Source: Mesoterricola sediminis (lineage in GTDB: Bacteria > Acidobacteriota > Holophagae > Holophagales > Holophagaceae). Taken from it: DNA of 64,000 nt. The notes beneath the pieces are model-generated. The model saw nothing but the letters and a program-made list of their open reading frames with translations, was not told the DNA's origin and searched no databases. Position 1 is the first letter of the stretch. Every line of letters begins with the position of its first letter. Position numbers and translations under genes: made by a program. The stretch is taken from the NCBI RefSeq assembly GCF_030295425.1, contig NZ_AP027081.1, positions 2,420,965 to 2,484,964 on the forward strand, read 5' to 3'. Shown piece after piece: positions 3,512 to 60,168 of this stretch.

Positions 3512-4273
3512 TCACTGACCTCCCGATCCAGGAACGATAAAGAAGGTGCCGTTTACTCCGGGCGCTAGGGTTGGTGCAACACGGTTGTATGAGGCGACAA
3601 ATCGATTTGCAATCTGTTCCGCGGTCCCGCCCCCTCTCATTGCGGCAGCGACCGATAACCCAACCTGTGCAAGGTCAACACGCCCAGATGTCACCACGCC
3701 AATTCCCGAAAACCTAGAACCGGATGAACTAACAGCTTCTGCGGAATGGCAAAAACCTAGAATCGCGACATTGGCTTGAATGGTTGAAGGTAGCGTTCCA
3801 AGTTGATTTGCGCCGTTCACCATGGGACCAACCATTGGGCCGGTTGTCGTACCCCCAGAGGGATCGACATTCGATGCGCCATGACCGATCATCGCCACGA
3901 CATTCCCTGGTTGCCCCAATGTCCCGTCAATGTCCGCCTGGGTGGCATACCCTTTGGGGTTGGTCGCACCATTCGAGACGCCAAGCGCCTGGGCAGCCTT
4001 TGCCGCTGCGTTATCAGTATTATCGATCATCCCCTGCGTAACAGTCGCACTGGGCTTATTGGGCAGATTGTATAGGAGCTTATTTGTCTGCGACAACGCA
4101 GCACCCCACCGCGTTTCCCAGCCGCGGGGCGCTGATTGCCTTGTACCACATCGCTTTTCAAAGACCGATGGGTCATGGTACCACCTGAGACCCCCTGACG
4201 CGCTTTTCCTGGCGCGCCGGGGTCGGCAGCCTGGGTAAGCGGCTAAAGAAGGAACAGCGAGAGGGGGAGGCAC
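3512..4273 (-). CDS. Possible caspase-like (CHAT-type) protein, N-terminus uncertain
   Basis: The frame gives 253 residues, but the first 60 or so are Arg/Pro-rich, GC-rich and look unlike the rest, so the true start may be inside or the gene may be 5'-truncated by a rearrangement near 4100-4200. From SQTNKLLYNL on, the protein looks real. It contains a His in VVAMIGHGAS and a Cys in VAILGFCHSAEA about 45 residues later; the GHG then hydrophobic-xxCxS spacing is reminiscent of the caspase-like His-Cys dyad of CHAT or C13/C14-type peptidases. This is a motif resemblance, not a family assignment. It is followed immediately by a secreted protein gene. Confidence 0.45.
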   Translation of the reverse strand: MPPPLAVPSLAAYPGCRPRRARKSASGGLRWYHDPSVFEKRCGTRQSAPRGWETRWGAALSQTNKLLYNLPNKPSATVTQGMIDNTDNAAAKAAQALGVSNGATNPKGYATQADIDGTLGQPGNVVAMIGHGASNVDPSGGTTTGPMVGPMVNGANQLGTLPSTIQANVAILGFCHSAEAVSSSGSRFSGIGVVTSGRVDLAQVGLSVAAAMRGGGTAEQIANRFVASYNRVAPTLAPGVNGTFFIVPGSGGQ

Positions 4274-12806: not shown

Positions 12807-12990
12807 CCGCCACGGCTGGCGCCCCTGCAGGTGGGGCCTAGGAGGCCATCCGGAGGGTCTCCGCCCAGCGCGCGAGTTCAGGAGCCCGGCCAAAGAAGCG
12901 TCCGTGTCCCGGACCCCGCGGCGCGGACGTCCGGGACCCGTTCGATCACGCGGAACGGCAAGGGGAGGACCCGGTGTCCGGATTCATGAC

Positions 12991-13050
12991 TTACCCTGGT
13001 CAGCACGAAGGCTTGGAACAAGGGGGTTCCGGTGATTCGATCAACCGGCC
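12991..13050 (+). repeat. 60-bp dispersed palindromic repeat, copy A
   Basis: Begins TTACCCTGGTCAGCACGAAGG and ends directly at the stop codon of the chemoreceptor gene on the minus strand. The middle forms a hairpin (TGGAAC/GTTCCG, one G-U pair). It matches the copy at 21754-21813 at about 45 of 60 positions, including an uninterrupted 17 bases. A third copy is at 20422-20481 in the opposite orientation. Relative to the gene upstream, all three copies have the same orientation. Confidence 0.75.
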
Positions 13051-14640
13051 CTAGACCTTGAACCCCGCGACCACGTGGCGCAGGCCTTCGGCCACGGAGG
13101 CGAGGTCGTCGGAGGTCTTGGTGATCTCGGAGACGGTTGCGCTCAGCTCCTGGGTGGCGGAGGCGTTCTGGGCCAGGCGATCGGTGGTCTGGCTCATGCG
13201 CTCGGCGACGTCCCGGCTGGTCTCGGCCTGGGACTGGCTGAGGGCGCCGATCTCCTGGATGCTGGCGGCGATGGTGTCGATGCGGGCGCGGATGGCCTCC
13301 AGGTTCTGGAGGGTGGTGCGCACGCCCTGTTCCCCGCCGGCCACGGCCTCCTGGGACCGCTCGTTGAGGTGGGCGATCTCCTGGGCCGCGCTGCGGGACC
13401 GCTCGGCGAGCTTGCGGACCTCCTCGGCCACCACCGCGAAACCCTTGCCCAGGTTGCCGGCCTTGGCGGCCTCGATGGCGGCGTTGAGGGAGAGCAGGTT
13501 GGTCTGGCGCGCGATCTCCTGGATCACCTGGACGGCCCGCAGGACCTGCCCGGCGGCGTCGCGGATCTCCTCCATGCCCCGGGACGCGGCCTGGCCGGCC
13601 TCGGCGCCGCGGGAGGTGTCGTCCACCGCCTCCCGGCTCTGGCCGGCGGTGGCCTGGGTCCGCTGCCGCATGGCCTCGACGTTGCCGTTCAGCTCCTCCA
13701 TGGCCCGGGAGACCTGGAGGCCCGCGTCCCGCAGGCCCTCGCTGACCCGGGCGATGTCGTGGACGGCCCGGGCCATTTCCTGGGACGTGGCGGCCAGTTC
13801 GGCGCTGCCGGAGGCCACCCGGTCGGAGAAGGCGGCGATGTCCGTCACCGTGTCGCGCATCTTGTGGTTGTATGCGTTGAACGCCTCGGCGGCCTCGCCG
13901 ATCTCGTCCCGGCTCTCCACGGCGATGGCCTTGGAGAGGTCGCTGTCCCGCAGGCCCTGCACGAGCTGCCGGATGGGGCGGACCATGGCCTGGGCCCGCC
14001 GCTGGCTGAACCACGCCGCGAGGGCCGCGACCAGCAGCGTCGCGCCCAGGACCACATAGGAGATGCGCCACATGAGCACGTCGATGTCGTCGAGGTAGAC
14101 GCCCGCCCCGATGACCCAGTCCCACTCGCGCACGCGCTTGGCGTAGGCGGACTTGGGGAAGAGGCCCTCCTTGCCGATCTTGGCGAAGGGGTAGTCGTAG
14201 TAGGTCCCGGCCGGATCCTCGGAGCCCGCGCGCAGGGCGCGCACGATCGTGAGGGTCGCGGGGGGGAGCTGCTCGGGGGCCTTGTTCTCGAACTGGGGCG
14301 CCGAGGGGAGCACGAGGATCACGTGGCTGGGCCCGTGGATGAAGAGGTAGTTGCTGCCCTCGAACCGGGCCGCGCGGACCAGGTCCTTGGCGCGGCGCTG
14401 GGCCTCGTCCAGGGGGAGGCGGCCCTCCTGGGCCTCCCGGGCGAGGGCGGTCACCTGGGACTGGACGGTCTCCACCACGTTGCGGAGGCCCTCCTTCTTG
14501 GCGCGGAGGAGGTCCGTGCGCACCTTGGGCAGGATGAAGCCCGCGACGACGAGCACGAACAGCACGACGGGGATCATGGCGGTGGTGAAGACCTTCCCCG
14601 CCAGGGAACGGAGGTAGGAACGGCTTGCTTCCATGGCCAT
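13051..14640 (-). CDS. Methyl-accepting chemotaxis protein with cache sensor
   Basis: 529-residue chemoreceptor. Membrane helix near residues 18-40 ([17 protein letters not shown]), then a periplasmic single-cache (sCache_2-type) domain about 45-190, recognisable from [16 protein letters not shown] and [21 protein letters not shown] plus [16 protein letters not shown] second helix ([15 protein letters not shown]), HAMP linker and signalling domain follow, with the hairpin at [20 protein letters not shown]. Caches of this type bind small organic acids in characterised receptors; the ligand here is unknown. Start supported by AGGAGAG seven bases before the ATG. The stop codon abuts a dispersed repeat. 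Confidence 0.93.
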
Positions 14641-14718
14641 GGCGCTCTCCTGTCGGGGTTGGACCGGAGTTTACACGCTTGTGACCTGTTTCCAGCGGAA
14701 AAAGGGCGCCTAGGGGGA

Positions 14719-15585
14719 TCAGGCCCGGCGATGCCGCCGAACCCGCCGTTTGACCACCGGTTCCGGCCCCTCGACCCAACGGCGGATGCGGTCGGCGTCG
14801 TCGAACCGGGAATGGGGGCCGTTGGCGTCCAGGAGGACGATGAGGAGCGGGCGGTGCCCGACCTGGGCCTGCATCACGAGGCACTGGCCCGATTCCTCGA
14901 TGAAGCCGGTCTTGGAGAGCCCGATGCGCCAGCGGGAGCTCTGGAGGAGGGCGTTGGTGTTGTGGAAGCGGATGGGGCCCCGGCGGCCGGCCACCTCGGC
15001 CTGCTCCCGGGTGCTGCAGGCCCGGATGACGGGGTAGTGGGCCGCGGCGTCGACGATGCGGGCCATCTCCTTGGCGGAGGCCACGTTGCCCGAGGACAGG
15101 CCGGCGGGGTCGATGAACCGGGCGCTGCCCAGGCCCAGGGCCCGGGCCTTGGCGTTCATGGCCGCCACGAAGACGCCCATGCCGCCCGGGAAGGTGCGGC
15201 CGAGGGCGTGGGCCGCCCGGTTTTCGCTGGCCATGAGGGCCAGGGTGAGGGCCTCCTGGCGGGTGAGGGGGGTGCCCACGGGGAGCCGGCTCCGGCTGTG
15301 CCGGAGGGTGTCCTTGTCCTCCTCCAGGATGGTGAGGGGGGCCTGCAGGTCCACCTTGGCGTCCAGGAGGACCATGGCCGTGACCAGCTTGGTCAAGGAG
15401 GCCACGGGGACCACGTCGTCGGCGCGCTTGGCCAGGAGGGCCTCGCCGGTCCGCTGGTCCTGCACGATCACCGAGGCCGCCCGCAACCGGGGGCCCGGGG
15501 CCGCCTGGACCAGGGTCAGGCCGGTCAGGGCCAGCGCGGCGACCAGCCGCGAGAAATGCATGGAAAAGCTGCGAATATGGAGCAT
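14719..15585 (-). CDS. Serine-type D-Ala-D-Ala peptidase (S11, PBP7-like)
   Basis: Periplasmic penicillin-binding-type peptidase, probably trimming peptidoglycan peptides. 288 residues from the ATG at 15585, which has GGAAGG close upstream; the ATG at 15561 is an alternative directly before the signal sequence (FSRLVAALALTGLTLVQA). The three active-site motifs are present: SxxK as SLTK, SxN as SEN (ASENRAAHAL), and KTG in LSKTGFIEE. The length and the absence of an extra C-terminal domain fit the endopeptidase branch (PbpG) rather than DacA. The C-terminus is strongly basic (KRRVRRHRRA). Divergent from the membrane protein gene at 15784. Confidence 0.9.
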   Translation of the reverse strand: MLHIRSFSMHFSRLVAALALTGLTLVQAAPGPRLRAASVIVQDQRTGEALLAKRADDVVPVASLTKLVTAMVLLDAKVDLQAPLTILEEDKDTLRHSRSRLPVGTPLTRQEALTLALMASENRAAHALGRTFPGGMGVFVAAMNAKARALGLGSARFIDPAGLSSGNVASAKEMARIVDAAAHYPVIRACSTREQAEVAGRRGPIRFHNTNALLQSSRWRIGLSKTGFIEESGQCLVMQAQVGHRPLLIVLLDANGPHSRFDDADRIRRWVEGPEPVVKRRVRRHRRA

Positions 15586-15783
15586 TGACCTTCCGGGCGG
15601 GGGGAGACGACTTGTTAAAACTGTGCCACGAACCCGGACAAACACAAACCTCCGGATGCGGTTCTCCAGGCAACCGACCCCGCGACCTCCCGACCCGTTG
15701 AGGCGGTCGGGTCGTCGGCGTCCGGTTGGCAGCGCGGTTCAAATCCCGGATACTGGCGCATCCCCTTTCCTGGAACCCGCGCC

Positions 15784-16665
15784 ATGGCCCTCCGCCCTGT
15801 CTCCCGTCTGACCAACGTCCTCCTCTGGGCCCTGGCCGCCCTCGTCATGCTCAGCGCCATCGTGTACCAGCGGCGGACCGGCCCCACCCACCCCAAGCGG
15901 GGCACCTTCACCGTGGGCGGGGCCACCCTGCCCTATCGCTTGCTGCGGAGCGGCGACAGTTTCCAGGACGCGCGCATTGCCGTGCCGGACCCGGGCGGAC
16001 GCACCGCCGGCACGCTGCTCTACCGGCGGTTCAAGACGGCCGATCCCTTCACGACCCTGCCCCTCCGGGCGGAGACCCGGGACGGCCGCCGGGAGCTGGC
16101 CGCGTACCTGCCTGCCCAGCCCGCCGCCGGCAAGCTGGAGTACCTGATCCGCCTCGAGGGGCCCACGGGCACCCTGGGCCTGCCCACGGACGGCGAGGCC
16201 GTCGTCATCCGCTTCAAGGACCGGGTGCCCACCCCCCTGCTCATCGCCCATGTGGCTCTCATGTTCGTGGGGGTGCTCATCGGGGTCCGCGCGGGCCTGG
16301 CCGCCCTCCACGGCTGCGCCGACATGGCCGCCCACGCCTGGGCCACCCTCCTGTGCCTGACCGCCGGCGGCCTGGTCCTGGGCCCCTTCGTCCAGAAGTA
16401 CGCCTTCGGCGCCTTCTGGACGGGCTTCCCCTTCGGCGGGGACCTCACCGACAACAAGACGCTCCTCATGTGGGGCGCCTGGGTCCTGGCCTGCGCCGTC
16501 CTGCGCCTGGGCCGGGCGGGCCTTGCGCGCATGGCCGTGACCCTGGCCTTCCTGGGCATGCTCGTGGTGTACGTCATCCCCCACAGCGCCCGGGGCAGCG
16601 AGCTGGACTACGCCAAGCTCGATCAGGGGGTGGCGGCCGCCGAGGCCATCCGCACCGGCCGGTAG
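15784..16665 (+). CDS. Integral membrane protein of unknown function
   Basis: 293 residues. One membrane helix at residues 12-28 (VLLWALAALVMLSAIVY), an extracytoplasmic beta-rich region of about 110 residues (TFTVGGATLPYRLLRSGDS to VIRFKDRVP), and then four helices (LLIAHVALMFVGVLIGV; WATLLCLTAGGLVLGPF; LLMWGAWVLACAVL; MAVTLAFLGMLVVYVIP). I do not recognise the family. The architecture, a small outside domain carried between membrane helices, would fit a sensor or assembly factor. A clean GC3-biased frame; the upstream 198 bases carry no other gene. Confidence 0.7.
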   Translation: MALRPVSRLTNVLLWALAALVMLSAIVYQRRTGPTHPKRGTFTVGGATLPYRLLRSGDSFQDARIAVPDPGGRTAGTLLYRRFKTADPFTTLPLRAETRDGRRELAAYLPAQPAAGKLEYLIRLEGPTGTLGLPTDGEAVVIRFKDRVPTPLLIAHVALMFVGVLIGVRAGLAALHGCADMAAHAWATLLCLTAGGLVLGPFVQKYAFGAFWTGFPFGGDLTDNKTLLMWGAWVLACAVLRLGRAGLARMAVTLAFLGMLVVYVIPHSARGSELDYAKLDQGVAAAEAIRTGR

Positions 16666-16718
16666 GGCTCCGTACAGGCCAGGTCCCCGCGGGCGCCGCG
16701 GGGACCTGGGAGCCGGGT

Positions 16719-17939
16719 TCAGAAGGAGGCGACGCCGGTGGGGGCCCCGATGCCGGTGGCCCAGTCGTAGCCCGCGGCGGCGGCGAAGCCGTTGCTGCCG
16801 GACAGGATGTCCCGGTAGGGATCCGTCGTGGAGGTGAACTGGCTGTAGAGGTGGGCCAGGAAGGCGGAAGTGCTGGTCCACTTGGTGGCGCCGTTGCTCT
16901 CCGCCGCGTTCAGCATGCCCGCCATGCAGGGGGAGCTGACGCTGGTGCCGCCGAAGACCATCCAGCCGGAGTAGCCCTGGTAGCTGGTGCTGTCATAGAC
17001 GGCCACGCCGGTGGCGGGGTCGGCGTCCGAACTGATGTCGGGGGTGGTGCGCCGGGCGCCCACGCCCTTGATCCCGGTCTGGAAGGCGGGCAGGGGCACG
17101 TAGGCGCTGACGCCGCCGCCGCCGCTGGACCAGGCGGACTCGGTGGTGATCGTATAGCCGCCCGCGTCGGTGGCGACGCTGGTGCCGCCCACGGACACGA
17201 CGTAGGCGGACGCGGAGGGGTAGATGACCTGGGCGCCCGTGTCGCCGGCCGATGCGAAGAAGATCACGGACTTGTTCGTGAAGTGGCTGTCATTGGCCGT
17301 TTCGCCGGAGGTCTCGCTCCCCCCCCAGCTCATGGACACCTGGTCGCCGGGGGCGGCCAGGCTCACGGCCTTGTCCACCGCCGCGTACATGTCCGAGAAA
17401 CTGGCGGAGGCCGCCTCCACGAGGACGATCTTGGCGCCGGGGGCCATGGCGTGGGCCCACTCGATGTCCAGGGCGGCCTCCTGGGCCCAGCCGCCGTTGG
17501 CCCGGGGCTTCTTGCCGGCGGCGTAGACCACCTGGAACACCTTGTTGGCGCTGGCGGTGGCGGAGGTGCTGGTCTCGGCGGGGAGGCCGAAGTAGTTGGA
17601 GAAGACGTTGAAGTCGGCCAGGGCCGTGGGGTAGTCGTAGGCGTCGACGATGAAGATCGTGCCGGAACCGGCGGGGAGCCCCGTCCCCTTGGTGGCGGGC
17701 ACGCCGTAGAAGGTCCGCAGCTGGGCCGGCGTCATGCCGCCCTTGGGCCCCAGGCCCGCGGAGGGCTCGATGAGGATGCGGTGGTTGGTGTGGACGCGCT
17801 GGCCGGCGTCCCCCGCCTGTTCGAGGCTCGTGCCCGGGATGTACACCTTGCCCACATGCTTGCCTTCCTCCTGGGCCTGCAGGAAGCAGCCAGCGAGGCC
17901 GAGGGTGAGGAGGGTGTAGGTCAGCTTTGACGTCCGCAT
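16719..17939 (-). CDS. Sedolisin-type serine-carboxyl peptidase (S53)
   Basis: Secreted or lipid-anchored acid protease. 406 residues from the ATG at 17939 with GGAGG six bases upstream. The signal peptide ends in a lipobox-like LAGC (Cys18). The catalytic Glu and Asp lie in QEAALDIEWAH (Glu154, Asp158), the oxyanion region in FFASAGDTGAQ, the nucleophile Ser in FGGTSVSSPCMAG, and the C-terminal calcium site in RDILSGSNG and YDWATGIGAP. The prosegment is very short (about 60 residues) compared with kumamolisin-type enzymes, so activation must differ or a separate inhibitor is absent. A stand-alone gene. Confidence 0.92.
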   Translation of the reverse strand: MRTSKLTYTLLTLGLAGCFLQAQEEGKHVGKVYIPGTSLEQAGDAGQRVHTNHRILIEPSAGLGPKGGMTPAQLRTFYGVPATKGTGLPAGSGTIFIVDAYDYPTALADFNVFSNYFGLPAETSTSATASANKVFQVVYAAGKKPRANGGWAQEAALDIEWAHAMAPGAKIVLVEAASASFSDMYAAVDKAVSLAAPGDQVSMSWGGSETSGETANDSHFTNKSVIFFASAGDTGAQVIYPSASAYVVSVGGTSVATDAGGYTITTESAWSSGGGGVSAYVPLPAFQTGIKGVGARRTTPDISSDADPATGVAVYDSTSYQGYSGWMVFGGTSVSSPCMAGMLNAAESNGATKWTSTSAFLAHLYSQFTSTTDPYRDILSGSNGFAAAAGYDWATGIGAPTGVASF

Positions 17940-18188
17940 GGGCGCCTCCAGGCAGGGGTGGGGGGGAATGCCCGAACCCCCCGCGTCCGGGGGGGCGCGA
18001 GGGGTTCTCAGGGGGCATGGGAATGAACGACGCGTATGATTTCGCACCTGGTCGCCCGGGCGTCAAGACAAAATTGAGACCCAGTCGCTGTAAAAACTCC
18101 TTTATCTTCCTCCGGGGGACCGGACCGGCCCGGGGCATGCGCCCGCCAGGCCCTGTGGCATCCTGGTTCCACCCCTCCAGGAGCGATC

Positions 18189-19223
18189 ATGGTCCCCCGC
18201 CGCACCCGAGCCATTGAAACCCAGGGCCTCGTGGACTCCGACCGCCTCCGGGACGCCGTGGAAGCGATCCGAGAAGCAGGCGCCGAGGGCCTCACCCGGG
18301 ACCGACTCCGGCAGCAGCTGGGGGTGCGCAGCGTCCGCACCGTGGACCGGGCCATCGGCCTCCTGGAGGCCCAGGGGGCCCGGCTGGACCGGATCCGCCG
18401 CGGCACGCCGCCGATCATCCATTTCGTCCTCCGCAAGGGCCCCACCTGGGACGAGCACGTGTCCAGCGAGGCCCGTCTGGCCCTGCGCATCGCCGGCCTC
18501 TCCCTCACCCAGACCGGCACCCACCTGTGGCAGGACAAGCTGGACGCCCTCGAGCACCTGGCCAGCCAACGCATGTCCAACCGGGACCGGCGCCTCTTCG
18601 AGCACCTCAAGCGGGCGGTGCGGGTGCAGGGGGCGGTGGACGACCCCATCGAGACCCCCAACCTGCTGGAGCCCATCCTCACCGCCCTGGACGGCGCCAA
18701 GGAGATGCAGATCGAGTACCAGGCCGCGGGCGCGGGGACCCCGACGCCCTACCAGGTGGTGCCCTACGCCCTCACCCACGACCTCTTTTCCGGCGGCACC
18801 TTCCTCCTCGTGTGGGAACCCCGCCGGCGCCTGCCCCTCCACCTCCGCCTGAACCGGATCTGCGCCGCCAAGCCCACCTCCCGGGCGGGGACCTACCCCG
18901 CCGACCTCATGGCCCAGGCCGCCGACTACCAGATCGGCGGCTGGACCAGCGCCAATCCCCCCTTCCAGGTGGAGGCGGTGATCCGGGGGGCCAACTGGGT
19001 GCAGGCCTTCAAGGAGGCGCCCCCCGCCCTGCCCCGGTTCGAGGCCCGGCCCGGCCCCGCGGAGGACGCGGTCCTGGTGCGCTTCTGGGCCACCCATCCC
19101 AAGGGCGTGCTCCGGTGGCTCCTCCAGTTCGGCGCCATGGCGGAGGTGCTCCACCCGGTGGAGATCCGCGAGGCGGTGGCCGGCCAGCTCCGGGAGGCCC
19201 TCGCCCGGTACGACGCCGTGTGA
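18189..19223 (+). CDS. WYL-domain transcriptional regulator
   Basis: 344 residues. An N-terminal helix-turn-helix (residues about 15-70, GLTRDRLRQQLGVRSVRTVDRAIGLL), a helical linker, a WYL-type domain about 165-235 (MQIEYQAAGAGTPTPYQVVPYAL and LLVWEPRRRLPLHLRLNRI), and a C-terminal WCX-like extension. WYL proteins are usually ligand-responsive transcription factors, some binding nucleotides or oligonucleotides. No defence genes lie next to it; the downstream neighbour is the cysteine-tailed CMD-like gene, so any regulatory link is speculative. Confidence 0.88.
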   Translation: MVPRRTRAIETQGLVDSDRLRDAVEAIREAGAEGLTRDRLRQQLGVRSVRTVDRAIGLLEAQGARLDRIRRGTPPIIHFVLRKGPTWDEHVSSEARLALRIAGLSLTQTGTHLWQDKLDALEHLASQRMSNRDRRLFEHLKRAVRVQGAVDDPIETPNLLEPILTALDGAKEMQIEYQAAGAGTPTPYQVVPYALTHDLFSGGTFLLVWEPRRRLPLHLRLNRICAAKPTSRAGTYPADLMAQAADYQIGGWTSANPPFQVEAVIRGANWVQAFKEAPPALPRFEARPGPAEDAVLVRFWATHPKGVLRWLLQFGAMAEVLHPVEIREAVAGQLREALARYDAV

Positions 19224-19315
19224 TCTGGGCCTCAAACCGGCCGGGGCCCCTTCCCAGGGGGCGCGGGTTCCCCCACCATCGAACGAGGGCCGCCAACCTG
19301 CCCGCCGGAGCACCT

Positions 19316-19660
19316 GTGAGACCTGACACCACCCCCGAACTGGTCACCGAAGCCGTCGCCGAACTCATCGCGCTGGGCGCCGCCATCGCCTCCAACAACC
19401 AGGAGGCCTTCCAGCGCCACAACTTCCGCCTCCACCGGCTGGGGGTGGCCCGGGAGGACCGCATCCAGGCCGTGAACATCGCCCTGCAGGTGAAGATGGC
19501 GCCCCACCGGAACCTGGTGGAAATGGCCGAAGCCTACCTGATGGGCGGCGAGGAGCCCACCGAAGGCGGCTGCGGGGGCGGCTGCGGCTGTTCCGGCGAG
19601 GAGGAGGGCTGCTGCGACGAAGGCGGGTGCGGCGAGGGCGGCTGCGGCTGCGGCGCCTGA
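19316..19660 (+). CDS. CMD/AhpD-like small protein with cysteine-rich tail
   Basis: 114 residues from a GTG at 19316 with GGAG five bases upstream. Residues 8-80 look like the helical core of carboxymuconolactone-decarboxylase/AhpD-type proteins (AVAELIALGAAIASNN and HRLGVAREDRIQAVNIAL), but the two redox cysteines expected near 28 and 31 are Asn and Ala, while His35 is kept. The last 30 residues contain eight cysteines in Gly-rich CGxC-type spacing (GCGGGCGCSG and GGCGEGGCGCG), suggesting metal binding. Followed 56 bases later by a MOSC gene. A metal chaperone or storage role is an inference; the peroxidase function is unlikely. Confidence 0.65.
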   Translation: MRPDTTPELVTEAVAELIALGAAIASNNQEAFQRHNFRLHRLGVAREDRIQAVNIALQVKMAPHRNLVEMAEAYLMGGEEPTEGGCGGGCGCSGEEEGCCDEGGCGEGGCGCGA

Positions 19661-19716
19661 TCCCGCCCCTTGAGCCGGCCCCGCTGACCGGCCACAATGC
19701 CGGCGGGGAGGCCGCG

Positions 19717-20352
19717 ATGACGATGATCCTGACGGAGATCCGGGTGGGGGGGGTGCAGGCGCGGGTGGACGCCCAGGGCCGGACCTGGCGCAGCGCCATC
19801 GCCAAGGTCCCCGCCCCGGGCCCCGTGCGCCTCGGCGCCCTGGGCCTGGCGGGGGACGCGGTGGGCAACCGCACGGTGCACGGCGGCCCGGACCAGGCCG
19901 TCCTCGCCTATGCCGCCGCCCACTACGCCCGCTGGCAGGCCGAGGGCGTGGCCGTCGAGCCCGGCGCCTTCGGGGAGAACTTCCTGCTGGACGGGTTGGA
20001 GGACGAGGAGGCCTGCATCGGGGACCTTTTCGCGGTGGGGCAGGCGCGGGTGCAGGTGAGCCATCCCCGGCAGCCCTGCGCGACCCTGGCCCGGCACCTG
20101 GACCGGCCCGACATCGTGGAGCGGGTCTGGACCCTGCGGCGCGGCGGCTGGTACCTGCGGGTGCTCCAGGAGGGCCTCGTGGAGGCGGGCCAGCCCCTGC
20201 GCCTCCTGGCCCGCCCCAATCCCGGCGCCACCGTCGCCCGGGTGCTCTCCGCCCAGCGCAATGCCGCCAGCGACCCCGCCGAGGCCCTCGCCCTGGCCGG
20301 CCTGGAAGGCCTCTCCGCCCCCTGGGCCGAACGGCTCGCCCATCCCCGGTAG
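19717..20352 (+). CDS. MOSC-domain protein (YiiM-like)
   Basis: 211 residues with GGGGAGG before the ATG. The family is recognisable from NRTVHGGPDQAVLAYAAAHYARW, the GAFGENFLLDGL stretch and SHPRQPCATLARHL, which contains the single conserved Cys of MOSC domains. YiiM-type proteins use molybdenum cofactor to reduce N-hydroxylated compounds. No molybdenum cofactor genes are nearby. A dispersed repeat lies 70 bases after the stop. Confidence 0.88.
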   Translation: MTMILTEIRVGGVQARVDAQGRTWRSAIAKVPAPGPVRLGALGLAGDAVGNRTVHGGPDQAVLAYAAAHYARWQAEGVAVEPGAFGENFLLDGLEDEEACIGDLFAVGQARVQVSHPRQPCATLARHLDRPDIVERVWTLRRGGWYLRVLQEGLVEAGQPLRLLARPNPGATVARVLSAQRNAASDPAEALALAGLEGLSAPWAERLAHPR

Positions 20353-20421
20353 ACGCCTGCGCCGCCGGGAGCCCTGCGTGGGATGAGCCGCTGGGTGCCT
20401 CCGCACCCCGAGTCAAGCCCG

Positions 20422-20481
20422 TTCAGGCAGCGCGAACCACCGGAACCACCTTGTTCCGATCCTTCGTGCTGGCAAGGGTAA
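20422..20481 (-). repeat. 60-bp dispersed palindromic repeat, copy C
   Basis: On the minus strand it starts TTACCCTTGCCAGCACGAAGG and carries the perfect hairpin CGGAAC-AAGGTG-GTTCCG. The distal dozen bases diverge from copies A and B. It lies downstream of the MOSC gene in the same relative orientation as the other copies, and its end touches the inverted repeat of the IS5-like remnant. Confidence 0.7.
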
Positions 20482-20535
20482 GAAGTGGTAACAAAGCCCC
20501 TTGTACATCAAGGAATGCGTGCACAGTGTACTTGG

Positions 20536-21278
20536 ATGGCCCGTGAAATCTTGCCCTCTGAACTCTGGAAACGCATCGCTCCGCTGCTGCCTCCGCCCGC
20601 GCCGAAGCCGAAGGAGATGGGCTGCGGCAGTGGCATGACATGCTGGCGCCGTCTCCAGGCGTGGCATGACCTCGGCGTGTGGGACGACCTCCTTCGAATC
20701 CTGCTCGAGGAGTTGAACGACGCAGGCCGGATCGATTGGGAGCGCGGCGCCCTGGATGCTTCAAGCATCAGGGCAAAAAGGGGGGCCAAACGATCGGCCC
20801 GAACCCCACGGATCGAGGGAAGAACGGGACCAGGCACCACCTGATCACCGATGCCAATGGAATCCCGATGGCGGTGCTGGTGGGGCCTGCGAACCAGCAT
20901 GACTCGGTTCCATTCGAGAAGCTGATCGATGCCGCGCCAGGGCTTCGCCATGGTCGTGGGCGCCCCCGGCGGCGTTTCAGGAAACTGCACGCCGACAAGG
21001 CCTATGACTTCCGCCGCTGCCGGATGGCCTGCAGAGTCAGGGGCATGCTCTCCCGCATTGCGCGGCGCGGGGTGGAAACCGCAGAGAAGCTTGGCAAGCA
21101 TCGTTGGGTAGTCGAGCGGACCTTCGCATGGTTCAAGCCCTTCAGGCGCCTCATGGTCCGCTACGAAAGGCGGGCCGAGATCCACCTGGCCTTCCTCAAG
21201 GTTGCAGCCAGCCGCATCTGCTTCTCTGCCCTGGGATGGTCGTGCGCTGGAAGTTGCCCCCAGCCCCATCCCCGTTGA
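20536..21278 (+). pseudogene. IS5-family transposase, internally deleted and frame-disrupted
   Basis: Begins MAREILPSELWKRIAPLLPP as in IS5/IS427-type transposases, but the roughly 30 residues normally found between the Pro-rich segment and EMGCGSGMTCWRRL are missing. The frame continues to DASSIRAK and is then lost; the rest (KKGGQTIGPNPTDRGKNG, RGRPRRRFRKLHADKAYD, WVVERTFAWFKPFRRL) is in the -1 frame. The switch falls in GCAAAAAGGGGGGCC near 20774-20788; one extra A would restore the family sequence. It could be a programmed frameshift site in principle, but with the deletion the copy is probably dead. Confidence 0.8.
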
Positions 21279-21410
21279 TCCCAGCCATCGGCGTTCATCC
21301 CTGTTACGCAGGGCCAGTGATTGCATGGGTAGGCGCGCCCATGACCCGCATGCGCCGACCCATCCGTGCCTCGGCCCTGCGTAACAGGGATGAACGCCGA
21401 TGGCTGGGAT
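21278..21410. repeat. Long palindromic element, 38-bp perfect arms
   Basis: Arms 21278-21315 and 21373-21410 are exact reverse complements; the 57-base spacer has a second inverted pair (ATGGGT...GGCGCG against CGC.GACCCAT). The arms contain GATGAACGCCGATGG and end in GGCCCTGCG. The element at 59925-60077 has the same design and related arm and core sequences, so this is a repeat family rather than a chance hairpin. Confidence 0.8.
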
Positions 21411-21753
21411 GGAGGAGATGAAGCACGGTAATCACCGGCGGCAAACGTCGGTTTTGTTACCCTTCTAAGTAAAGAACCCCTCCGGCGGTGCGGGACCGGT
21501 TCCTGGAGGCCGGCGAGTGTTCCCGAAACCGAGGGTTACCGAGGCGGCTGAGGCCAGGCCCGTCCAAGGCTGGGGGCGCAGGGCACCCACAGGCGTGCAT
21601 GCGGAAGGCCCGGAGCCCCCAGCCGAGCGATGCGCAGCATCGCGGCCCGCGGCAGCGGGCCAGGGCCTGGGCGGCATGGGGCGGCGCGGTGGATCGCGAA
21701 GCTGGCTCAGCGAAACTCGGCCTCTCGGCGCACCCGGCGTACGGGTTCTGTAC
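21411..21753. other. Gene-free stretch between palindrome and copy B of the 60-bp repeat
   Basis: After the IS5-like right repeat the sequence is GC-rich with several short inverted segments (for example CGGCCCGCGGCAGCGGGCC-like arms near 21640-21665). No coding frame has family features and no known structured RNA was recognised. Confidence 0.35.
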
Positions 21754-21813
21754 TTACCCTTGCCGTTACGAAGGAACGGGACACGATCGTTCCGGTGATT
21801 CGATCGACCTGCC
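21754..21813 (+). repeat. 60-bp dispersed palindromic repeat, copy B
   Basis: Starts TTACCCTTGCCGTTACGAAGG and ends exactly at the stop codon of the response regulator gene on the minus strand, as copy A does at its gene. The stem is CGGGAC/GTTCCG with one G-U pair, so the hairpin survives the base changes relative to the other copies. Confidence 0.75.
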
Positions 21814-22170
21814 CTAGGCGACCACGTCCTGGAGCACCTGGCGGATCTGGCCGAGGGTGAAGGGCTTGGGGATGACGCTGGCCTTGGGGTCGCGGGCGAT
21901 GGCCTCCTCCACGGTGGCGTCGACGTTGCCGGTGGCGAGGAGGACGGGGAGGCCGGGCTTGAGGGCCCGGAGGCGGGCCAGGGTCTCCACGCCGCCCATG
22001 TCGGGCATCGTCACGTCCAGGATCACCACGTCGGGATCGGGGCCGGCCTCGAGGCGGGCCAGGGCCTTGGCCCCGCGGTCCGCGGTCTCCACGGCGTGGC
22101 CGAGCACCTCCAGCAGGCTGGGGACGGAGGCAAGGATGAGTTCATCGTCGTCCACGAGGAGGATGTTCAT
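21814..22170 (-). CDS. Single-domain response regulator
   Basis: 118 residues, a receiver domain only. The acidic pocket is in LLVDDDELI, the phospho-acceptor Asp in VVILDVTMPDMGG, the Thr-equivalent in LLATGN and the conserved Lys in VIPKPFTLGQI. Without an output domain it probably acts in phosphorelay or by protein contact. The hybrid kinase at 48504-51074 has a very similar receiver and also ends in a KPF motif, but no kinase is adjacent here. The stop codon abuts repeat copy B. Confidence 0.9.
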   Translation of the reverse strand: MNILLVDDDELILASVPSLLEVLGHAVETADRGAKALARLEAGPDPDVVILDVTMPDMGGVETLARLRALKPGLPVLLATGNVDATVEEAIARDPKASVIPKPFTLGQIRQVLQDVVA

Positions 22171-59924: not shown

Positions 59925-60077
59925 TCCCCGTTCATCCTGCCCATCTGCGTTCATCCCCGTTTCCGCAGGGCCAGGAAAGGCGTGGGTCGGCGCGTGCAGG
60001 TCAGGCGTGCACCTGCCCGACCCATGGCTGGCCCTGCGGAAACGGGGATGAACGCAGATGGGCAGGATGAACGGGGA
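59925..60077. repeat. Long palindromic element, 50-bp perfect arms
   Basis: Arms 59925-59974 and 60028-60077 are exact reverse complements of 50 bases, with a 53-base spacer that has its own inverted pairs (GGGTCGG/CCGACCC and GCAGGT/ACCTGC). The arms contain CGGGGATGAACGCAGATGG and GGCCCTGCGGAAA, related to the element at 21278-21410 (GGATGAACGCCGATGG, GGCCCTGCG). The surrounding 433 bases (59755-60187) hold no gene. Confidence 0.8.
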
Positions 60078-60168
60078 TGGCCCTGATCCAACCTTCACCC
60101 TGGCCTCAGCCGGGATGCCTGTTCGAGTCGAGCCCTATACATTGCAGCATCCAGGATCAGGGCCATCC
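60075..60168. repeat. 15-bp inverted repeat overlapping the long palindrome
   Basis: GGATGGCCCTGATCC (60075-60089) and GGATCAGGGCCATCC (60154-60168) are exact complements with a 64-base spacer. The right copy is followed by CGCGTTCATCG, which resembles part of the long-palindrome arm. The two overlapping structures suggest a composite repeat. Confidence 0.65.

Follow-up and report, generated by a model that had tools for sequence, protein, structure and literature searches.

The window analysed here is a stretch of 64,000 nucleotides from the genome of Mesoterricola sediminis (NZ_AP027081.1, C1:2420965-2484964), in which three copies of a palindromic repeat of about 60 bp lie close to the ends of genes. 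The initial annotation had placed the copies at 12991-13050, 20422-20481 and 21754-21813, and all three were found there, each in one orientation. The first copy adjoins a chemoreceptor gene on the reverse strand (13051..14640; MCP signalling domain, PF00015), the second follows a MOSC-domain gene on the forward strand (19627..20352; PF03473), and the third adjoins a response-regulator gene on the reverse strand (21814..22170; PF00072); the domain matches agree with the names these genes had been given. The TAG stop codons of the chemoreceptor and response-regulator genes lie within CTAG at the tip of the repeat, and the end of two of the copies coincides with the final base of a TAG stop, as had been described.

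The whole genome (4,524,604 bp) was searched with a pattern of 42 positions drawn from the three window copies, with up to three mismatches allowed. The pattern matched at 38 places, 21 in forward and 17 in reverse orientation, and the reversed pattern, used as a control, matched at none; the repeat is real and beyond chance. Its copies occur singly, in tandem with the ends spaced by 186 bp, or as facing pairs whose tips point outward, and 17 elements having both ends in this outward arrangement were listed. When a 293-bp arm was used as the query, 48 matches were obtained in the genome. The motif thus exists as a repeat, but it extends well past the 60 bp originally assigned to it: it is the outermost tip of inverted-repeat arms of approximately 150-300 bp, and no independent element.

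Nor are the three window copies independent of one another, as had been assumed. The first belongs to a lone right end on the forward strand (12969..13051), which was recovered by both the pattern and the arm search (arm match G000:C1:2433933-2434010) and has lost its inner arm and its left end. The outermost base of this end is part of the chemoreceptor TAG stop (CTA at 13051-13053 on the forward strand). The second and third copies form the two ends, left and right respectively, of a single element (20421..21814, with boundaries taken from alignment with other ends), which has been broken by an insertion sequence. The left end (20421..20482, reverse strand) begins 68 bp after the MOSC gene. 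The right arm with the right end (21500..21814, forward strand) holds the third copy and is 84% identical to the arm of a two-gene element in a relative (G005); the terminal base of the element, C at 21814, belongs to the TAG stop of the response regulator. The insertion sequence in the left arm is a decayed IS5-type element (20482..21465, forward strand; NF033580, transpos_IS5_3) that is split by a frame break and ends approximately in GAAGTGGTAACAAAG and CTTTTGTTACCCTTC. It is flanked on either side by TAA (20479-20481 and 21466-21468), likely as a target duplication.

The two-gene element of G005 lies on contig C14, which is identical to DBMS01000078.1 from Holophagaceae bacterium UBA692, a member of the same genus. 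The order along the element is CTAG, left arm, an IS630-family transposase gene, a convergent GxxExxY gene, right arm and again CTAG. The transposase matched NF033545 with an E value of 2.9e-79 (266.7 bits, cut-off 100 bits) and PF13358 with an E value of 2.6e-18, and the GxxExxY gene (PDDEXK_3) matched TIGR04256 with an E value of 9.2e-33 (113.1 bits, cut-off 35). The arms of this locus (L105; approximately 1745-2040 and 3650-3959) are terminal inverted repeats that enclose the transposase gene, and the ends of the elements in the window genome align with its ends. In another relative, G003, pieces of both the transposase and the GxxExxY gene were found together with arms. The window genome itself contains 19 transposase matches, all of them fragments of at most 63 residues and all within element loci, while a full GxxExxY open reading frame has been kept in one element. 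The span between the GATC marks of the two tips ranges from 45 bp to 1.8 kb. As only scraps of the transposase are left, the copies in the window genome are derivatives of an IS630-family element that have lost internal sequence and are mostly non-coding; they resemble miniature inverted-repeat transposable elements (MITEs). An arm search of 41 genomes, comprising the window's own, five further members of the genus and 35 from more distant lineages, found the arm in five genomes, the window's own included; three of the five other genomes of the genus matched. We also considered whether IS630 transposons in general carry a GxxExxY gene, and rejected this: among 80 loci examined, of 498 found, one did so, and that one was the G005 element itself.

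In the tandem extra ends (L031, L037, L038 and L039), which keep the 186-bp spacing, approximately 35 bp match the sequence adjoining the right tip of L039. This piece seems to have been captured there and then carried to other sites.

The tips were compared at 40 outer ends from 23 loci, two of which (L036 left and L104 left) were shifted by hand for the CTAG register. The tip sequence is roughly CTAG-NNNAGGTN-GATCGAATCACCGGAAC. CTAG was in register at 21 of the 40 ends, and 12 of the remaining 19 were one mismatch away from it, whereas among control 4-mers taken further out in the flanks (n = 2080) CTAG made up 0.14% and sequences within one change of it 5.6%. An exact in-frame stop codon was present at the tip in 17 ends, 16 times as CTAG and once as CTAA, in open frames with strong third-position GC. 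Exact stops were thus found at 16 of the 21 CTAG ends as compared to 1 of the 19 others (Fisher p 4.7e-6). Seven further ends were at most 23 bp from a stop, and the other 16 had no gene reading in, so that the position downstream of genes, which had been described as invariable, is frequent but not general. CTAG is scarce in the window, with 19 occurrences observed as against 58.6 expected, and 8 of these 19 are predicted stop codons, two of them being the element sites themselves. That many insertions lie on stop codons is probably explained by the rarity of CTAG in this GC-rich genome, where C-TAG stops account for much of its occurrence.

Relatives show how such gene ends look when no element is present. 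Element-free homologues of the chemoreceptor end in CTAG in G001 and G005 and in ATAG in G004 (CTAG in two of three), and element-free homologues of the response regulator end in CTAG in G004 and in CTAA in G001 (one of two). Two gene pairs that are split by an element in the window genome are adjacent without it in relatives, one in G002 and the other in both G002 and G004.

The 17 ends placed exactly on a stop codon could also be read as RNA elements of 3' untranslated regions that make or protect mRNA 3' ends and are retained at gene ends for this function. In line with this, one window end gives a better fold than its shuffled versions (z -3.0), and there are eight terminator-like sites in 12900-22000 where 3.2 would be expected. 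However, none of these eight sites overlaps the stop-adjacent ends, the other two window ends fold like shuffles and the three have no fold in common (z -1.1, -3.0 and -0.2), and the homopolymer run consists of A and not of U in the direction leading from the gene to the element. At the other tip of such an element, moreover, there is usually no gene end. The 34 aligned ends gave no covariation, as shuffled alignments reached the observed score; in the tip hairpin none of the six pairs showed a two-sided change, and the G-U pair that had been regarded as compensatory is a one-sided change between A-U and G-U. A search of Rfam gave no match for the repeat. With no terminator-like site at the stop-adjacent ends, no shared fold and no covariation, we regard the suggested role in 3' end formation or mRNA stability as very improbable.

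We consider it very probable, in contrast, that the repeat constitutes the ends of derivatives of an IS630-family (Tc1/mariner-like) transposon, which are placed by a CTAG target and often sit on stop codons. In the full element, as found in G005, inverted-repeat arms of approximately 300 bp surround the IS630 transposase gene and a convergent cargo gene for a GxxExxY protein of the PD-(D/E)XK type. The transposase would pair the two ends and insert them at the TA within CTAG, whereby the TA would be duplicated, and with G as the first base of the element CTAG would be formed anew at each junction. An insertion on a C-TAG stop would leave the protein unchanged and would survive. A CTAG serving as a stop codon would subsequently be kept by selection, while the tip at the opposite end would be free to drift, for instance to CTCG, CTGG, CGAG or CCAG. 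The copies of the window genome were presumably mobilised in trans in the past. The title of a 1991 paper by Tenzen and Ohtsubo, cited among the references of PMC2170065, names the TA in 5'-CTAG-3' as a preferential transposition site. Such a target preference of IS630 would explain both the position and the common orientation of the copies, the latter because the arms are inverted and their tips meet CTAG stop codons at both sides.

Several observations weigh against this interpretation. Without the hand shift of two ends, CTAG is found at 19 of the 40 ends. CTAG is present at both tips in four elements only (L035, L036, L038 and L105), with near-CTAG at many others. An empty site at the level of single bases was sought at five places in relatives, and the exact joined sequence was never found; the candidates showed either an element-free gene pair or a homologous gene ending in TAG. 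As the sequence of the relatives is different at the stop codon itself, the TA duplication is unproven and the terminal G is inseparable from the target sequence. The transposase frame in G005 is broken near the C-terminus, and a fully intact autonomous copy was not seen in the genomes searched. In addition, the arms of IS630-family elements are usually far shorter than those described here.

IS630-family elements, including ISY100, insert at TA (PMC2170065), with a reported preference for CTAG, and the elements described here share this site as well as the family transposase in the relative's copy. They differ from them in their arms, which measure approximately 300 bp and contain internal sub-repeats, in the GxxExxY cargo gene, and in that most copies are non-coding. 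RUP of Streptococcus pneumoniae is a 107-bp MITE of IS630-Spn1 with a TA target (PMC2229807, PMC3049150) and is similar in being a non-autonomous repeat with IS630-like ends. In the present elements, however, the tips are separated by approximately 45 bp to 1.8 kb, the GC content is high and the location is on CTAG stop codons; their genome, moreover, lacks an intact partner transposase. MITEPsy1 of Pseudomonas syringae is likewise a small element inserting at CTAG, or at YTAA, but it is described as having 100 nt, a 4-nt duplication and a supposed derivation from ISPsy2 (PMC3189936). The elements of the window genome are a variation on a known type: MITE-like IS630 derivatives whose arms are long and composite, which have GxxExxY as cargo and are placed by a CTAG target.

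It had also been suggested that a REP-like element inserts at these sites, and a search for a RAYT-type transposase had been proposed. The notion of an inserting element was correct in essence, although the element is an IS630-family transposon or MITE. Repeats of the REP/BIME (repetitive extragenic palindromic/bacterial interspersed mosaic element) type, spread by a RAYT (TnpA-REP) transposase, resemble the copies in being palindromic, repeated and located between genes. Their anatomy is different, as the repeats described here terminate long elements that have an IS630 partner, and a search of the whole genome for PF01797 (Y1 transposase) gave no match, while the same search was positive in 5 of the 14 genomes used as controls. 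The probability of this alternative is close to nil. A search for S23/IVS elements with PF05635 was without a match in the genome and likewise in every control genome. We also weighed integron attC-like sites and dropped them, since what we take to be their core motif is absent, although no search for it was made.

An apparent 3'-UTR (untranslated region) regulatory signal is hereby recast as a target-site effect. In genomes whose remaining CTAG sites are mainly stop codons, an element requiring CTAG mimics an element of gene ends, which calls for general caution in the discovery of RNAs from repeats.

The cargo gene belongs to the GxxExxY family (TIGR04256/PF13366), with proteins of 140-180 aa, and this lead may outweigh the finding in the window. 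The window genome has 49 matches to PF13366, most of them in a second family of elements (L049, L050 and L057-L066 in the window genome, G000). This is a high-copy IS5-type element of approximately 1.6 kb with GxxExxY between 45-bp inverted repeats; most compared copies are over 98% alike, and the gene is usually truncated, in most copies in the same way. In both the IS630 and the IS5 family the gene lies within inverted repeats holding 8-9-mers, such as CGCCGAGT or CGCGGAGG.

GxxExxY matches were present in 104 of 297 genomes drawn from the phylum. We analysed 69 loci (L238-L306, from 51 phylum genomes): 29 that did not lie in the window genome, followed by the next 40 matches in list order, again with those of the window genome excluded. 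Inverted repeats of 8-9-mers occurred within 180 bp on both sides of the gene at 53 of the 69 loci. In the controls, direct repeats were found at 6 of 69 and inverted repeats in flanks 700 bp away at 0 of 66. When flanks of different loci were paired with each other, an inverted repeat was obtained in 8 of 69 cases, in keeping with a motif shared between loci. Tandem pairs of C-N-C-N-R-A-G showed a mirror-image arrangement, with 71 forward and 7 reverse pairs upstream and 90 reverse and 19 forward pairs downstream, as compared to a single pair in 48,538 bp further out. Merging the loci with similar flanks left 40 sites, 33 of which had the inverted repeat, covering 15 of 18 families and 24 of the 29 sampled genera. 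Many of the sites are common to related species and hence make no case for frequent movement. In contrast to the G005 element, the gene elsewhere in the phylum stands alone between short inverted repeats, with no IS630 gene beside it at any of 29 loci.

The occurrence of inverted repeats made of such 8-9-mers closely around other GxxExxY genes of the phylum, in the arms described here and in the IS5-based family of the same genome could mean that the GxxExxY cassette itself, with its own inverted repeats and nuclease, brought the tips, the IS630 transposase being a later passenger. The octamer block, however, sits within the arms and away from the CTAG tips, and CTAG/TA is the reported target of IS630; we judge this course of events to be very unlikely. 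More tentatively than for the IS630 origin of the tips, it is possible, although we would not favour it over its negation, that GxxExxY genes are the coding part of undescribed compact palindromic cassettes with 8-9-mer repeats (C-N-C-N-R-A-G-N), whose nuclease may recognise the repeats as DNA, RNA or a cruciform hairpin and maintain or spread the cassette. In this genus the cassettes would have been taken up by the mutually unrelated IS630 and IS5 elements, and the window repeat would be the worn tip of one such hybrid. The mirror-image repeat provides a candidate substrate for a common, unexplained protein family, and its phylum-wide signature is the more surprising result. The literature searched, which left subscription journals and preprints largely outside its coverage, contained no report of repeats flanking GxxExxY; the family was mentioned in two papers, in passing only, while PF13366 was named in one and TIGR04256 in none.

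Two other palindromes or insertion sites were observed in the course of the comparison. The IS630 element of G005 follows the stop codon of a methyltransferase gene, and in G001 an unrelated palindrome is located after the same stop (L134 and L135, from G004 and G001, respectively), which suggests a site of recurrent insertion. The IS5-type sequence in the window encloses a further palindrome (21278..21410) with 59-nt arms that are 86% complementary, unrelated to the repeat. It represents a separate family with approximately 17 places in the genome, a second window copy at about 59933-60080 and many copies in the relative G001.

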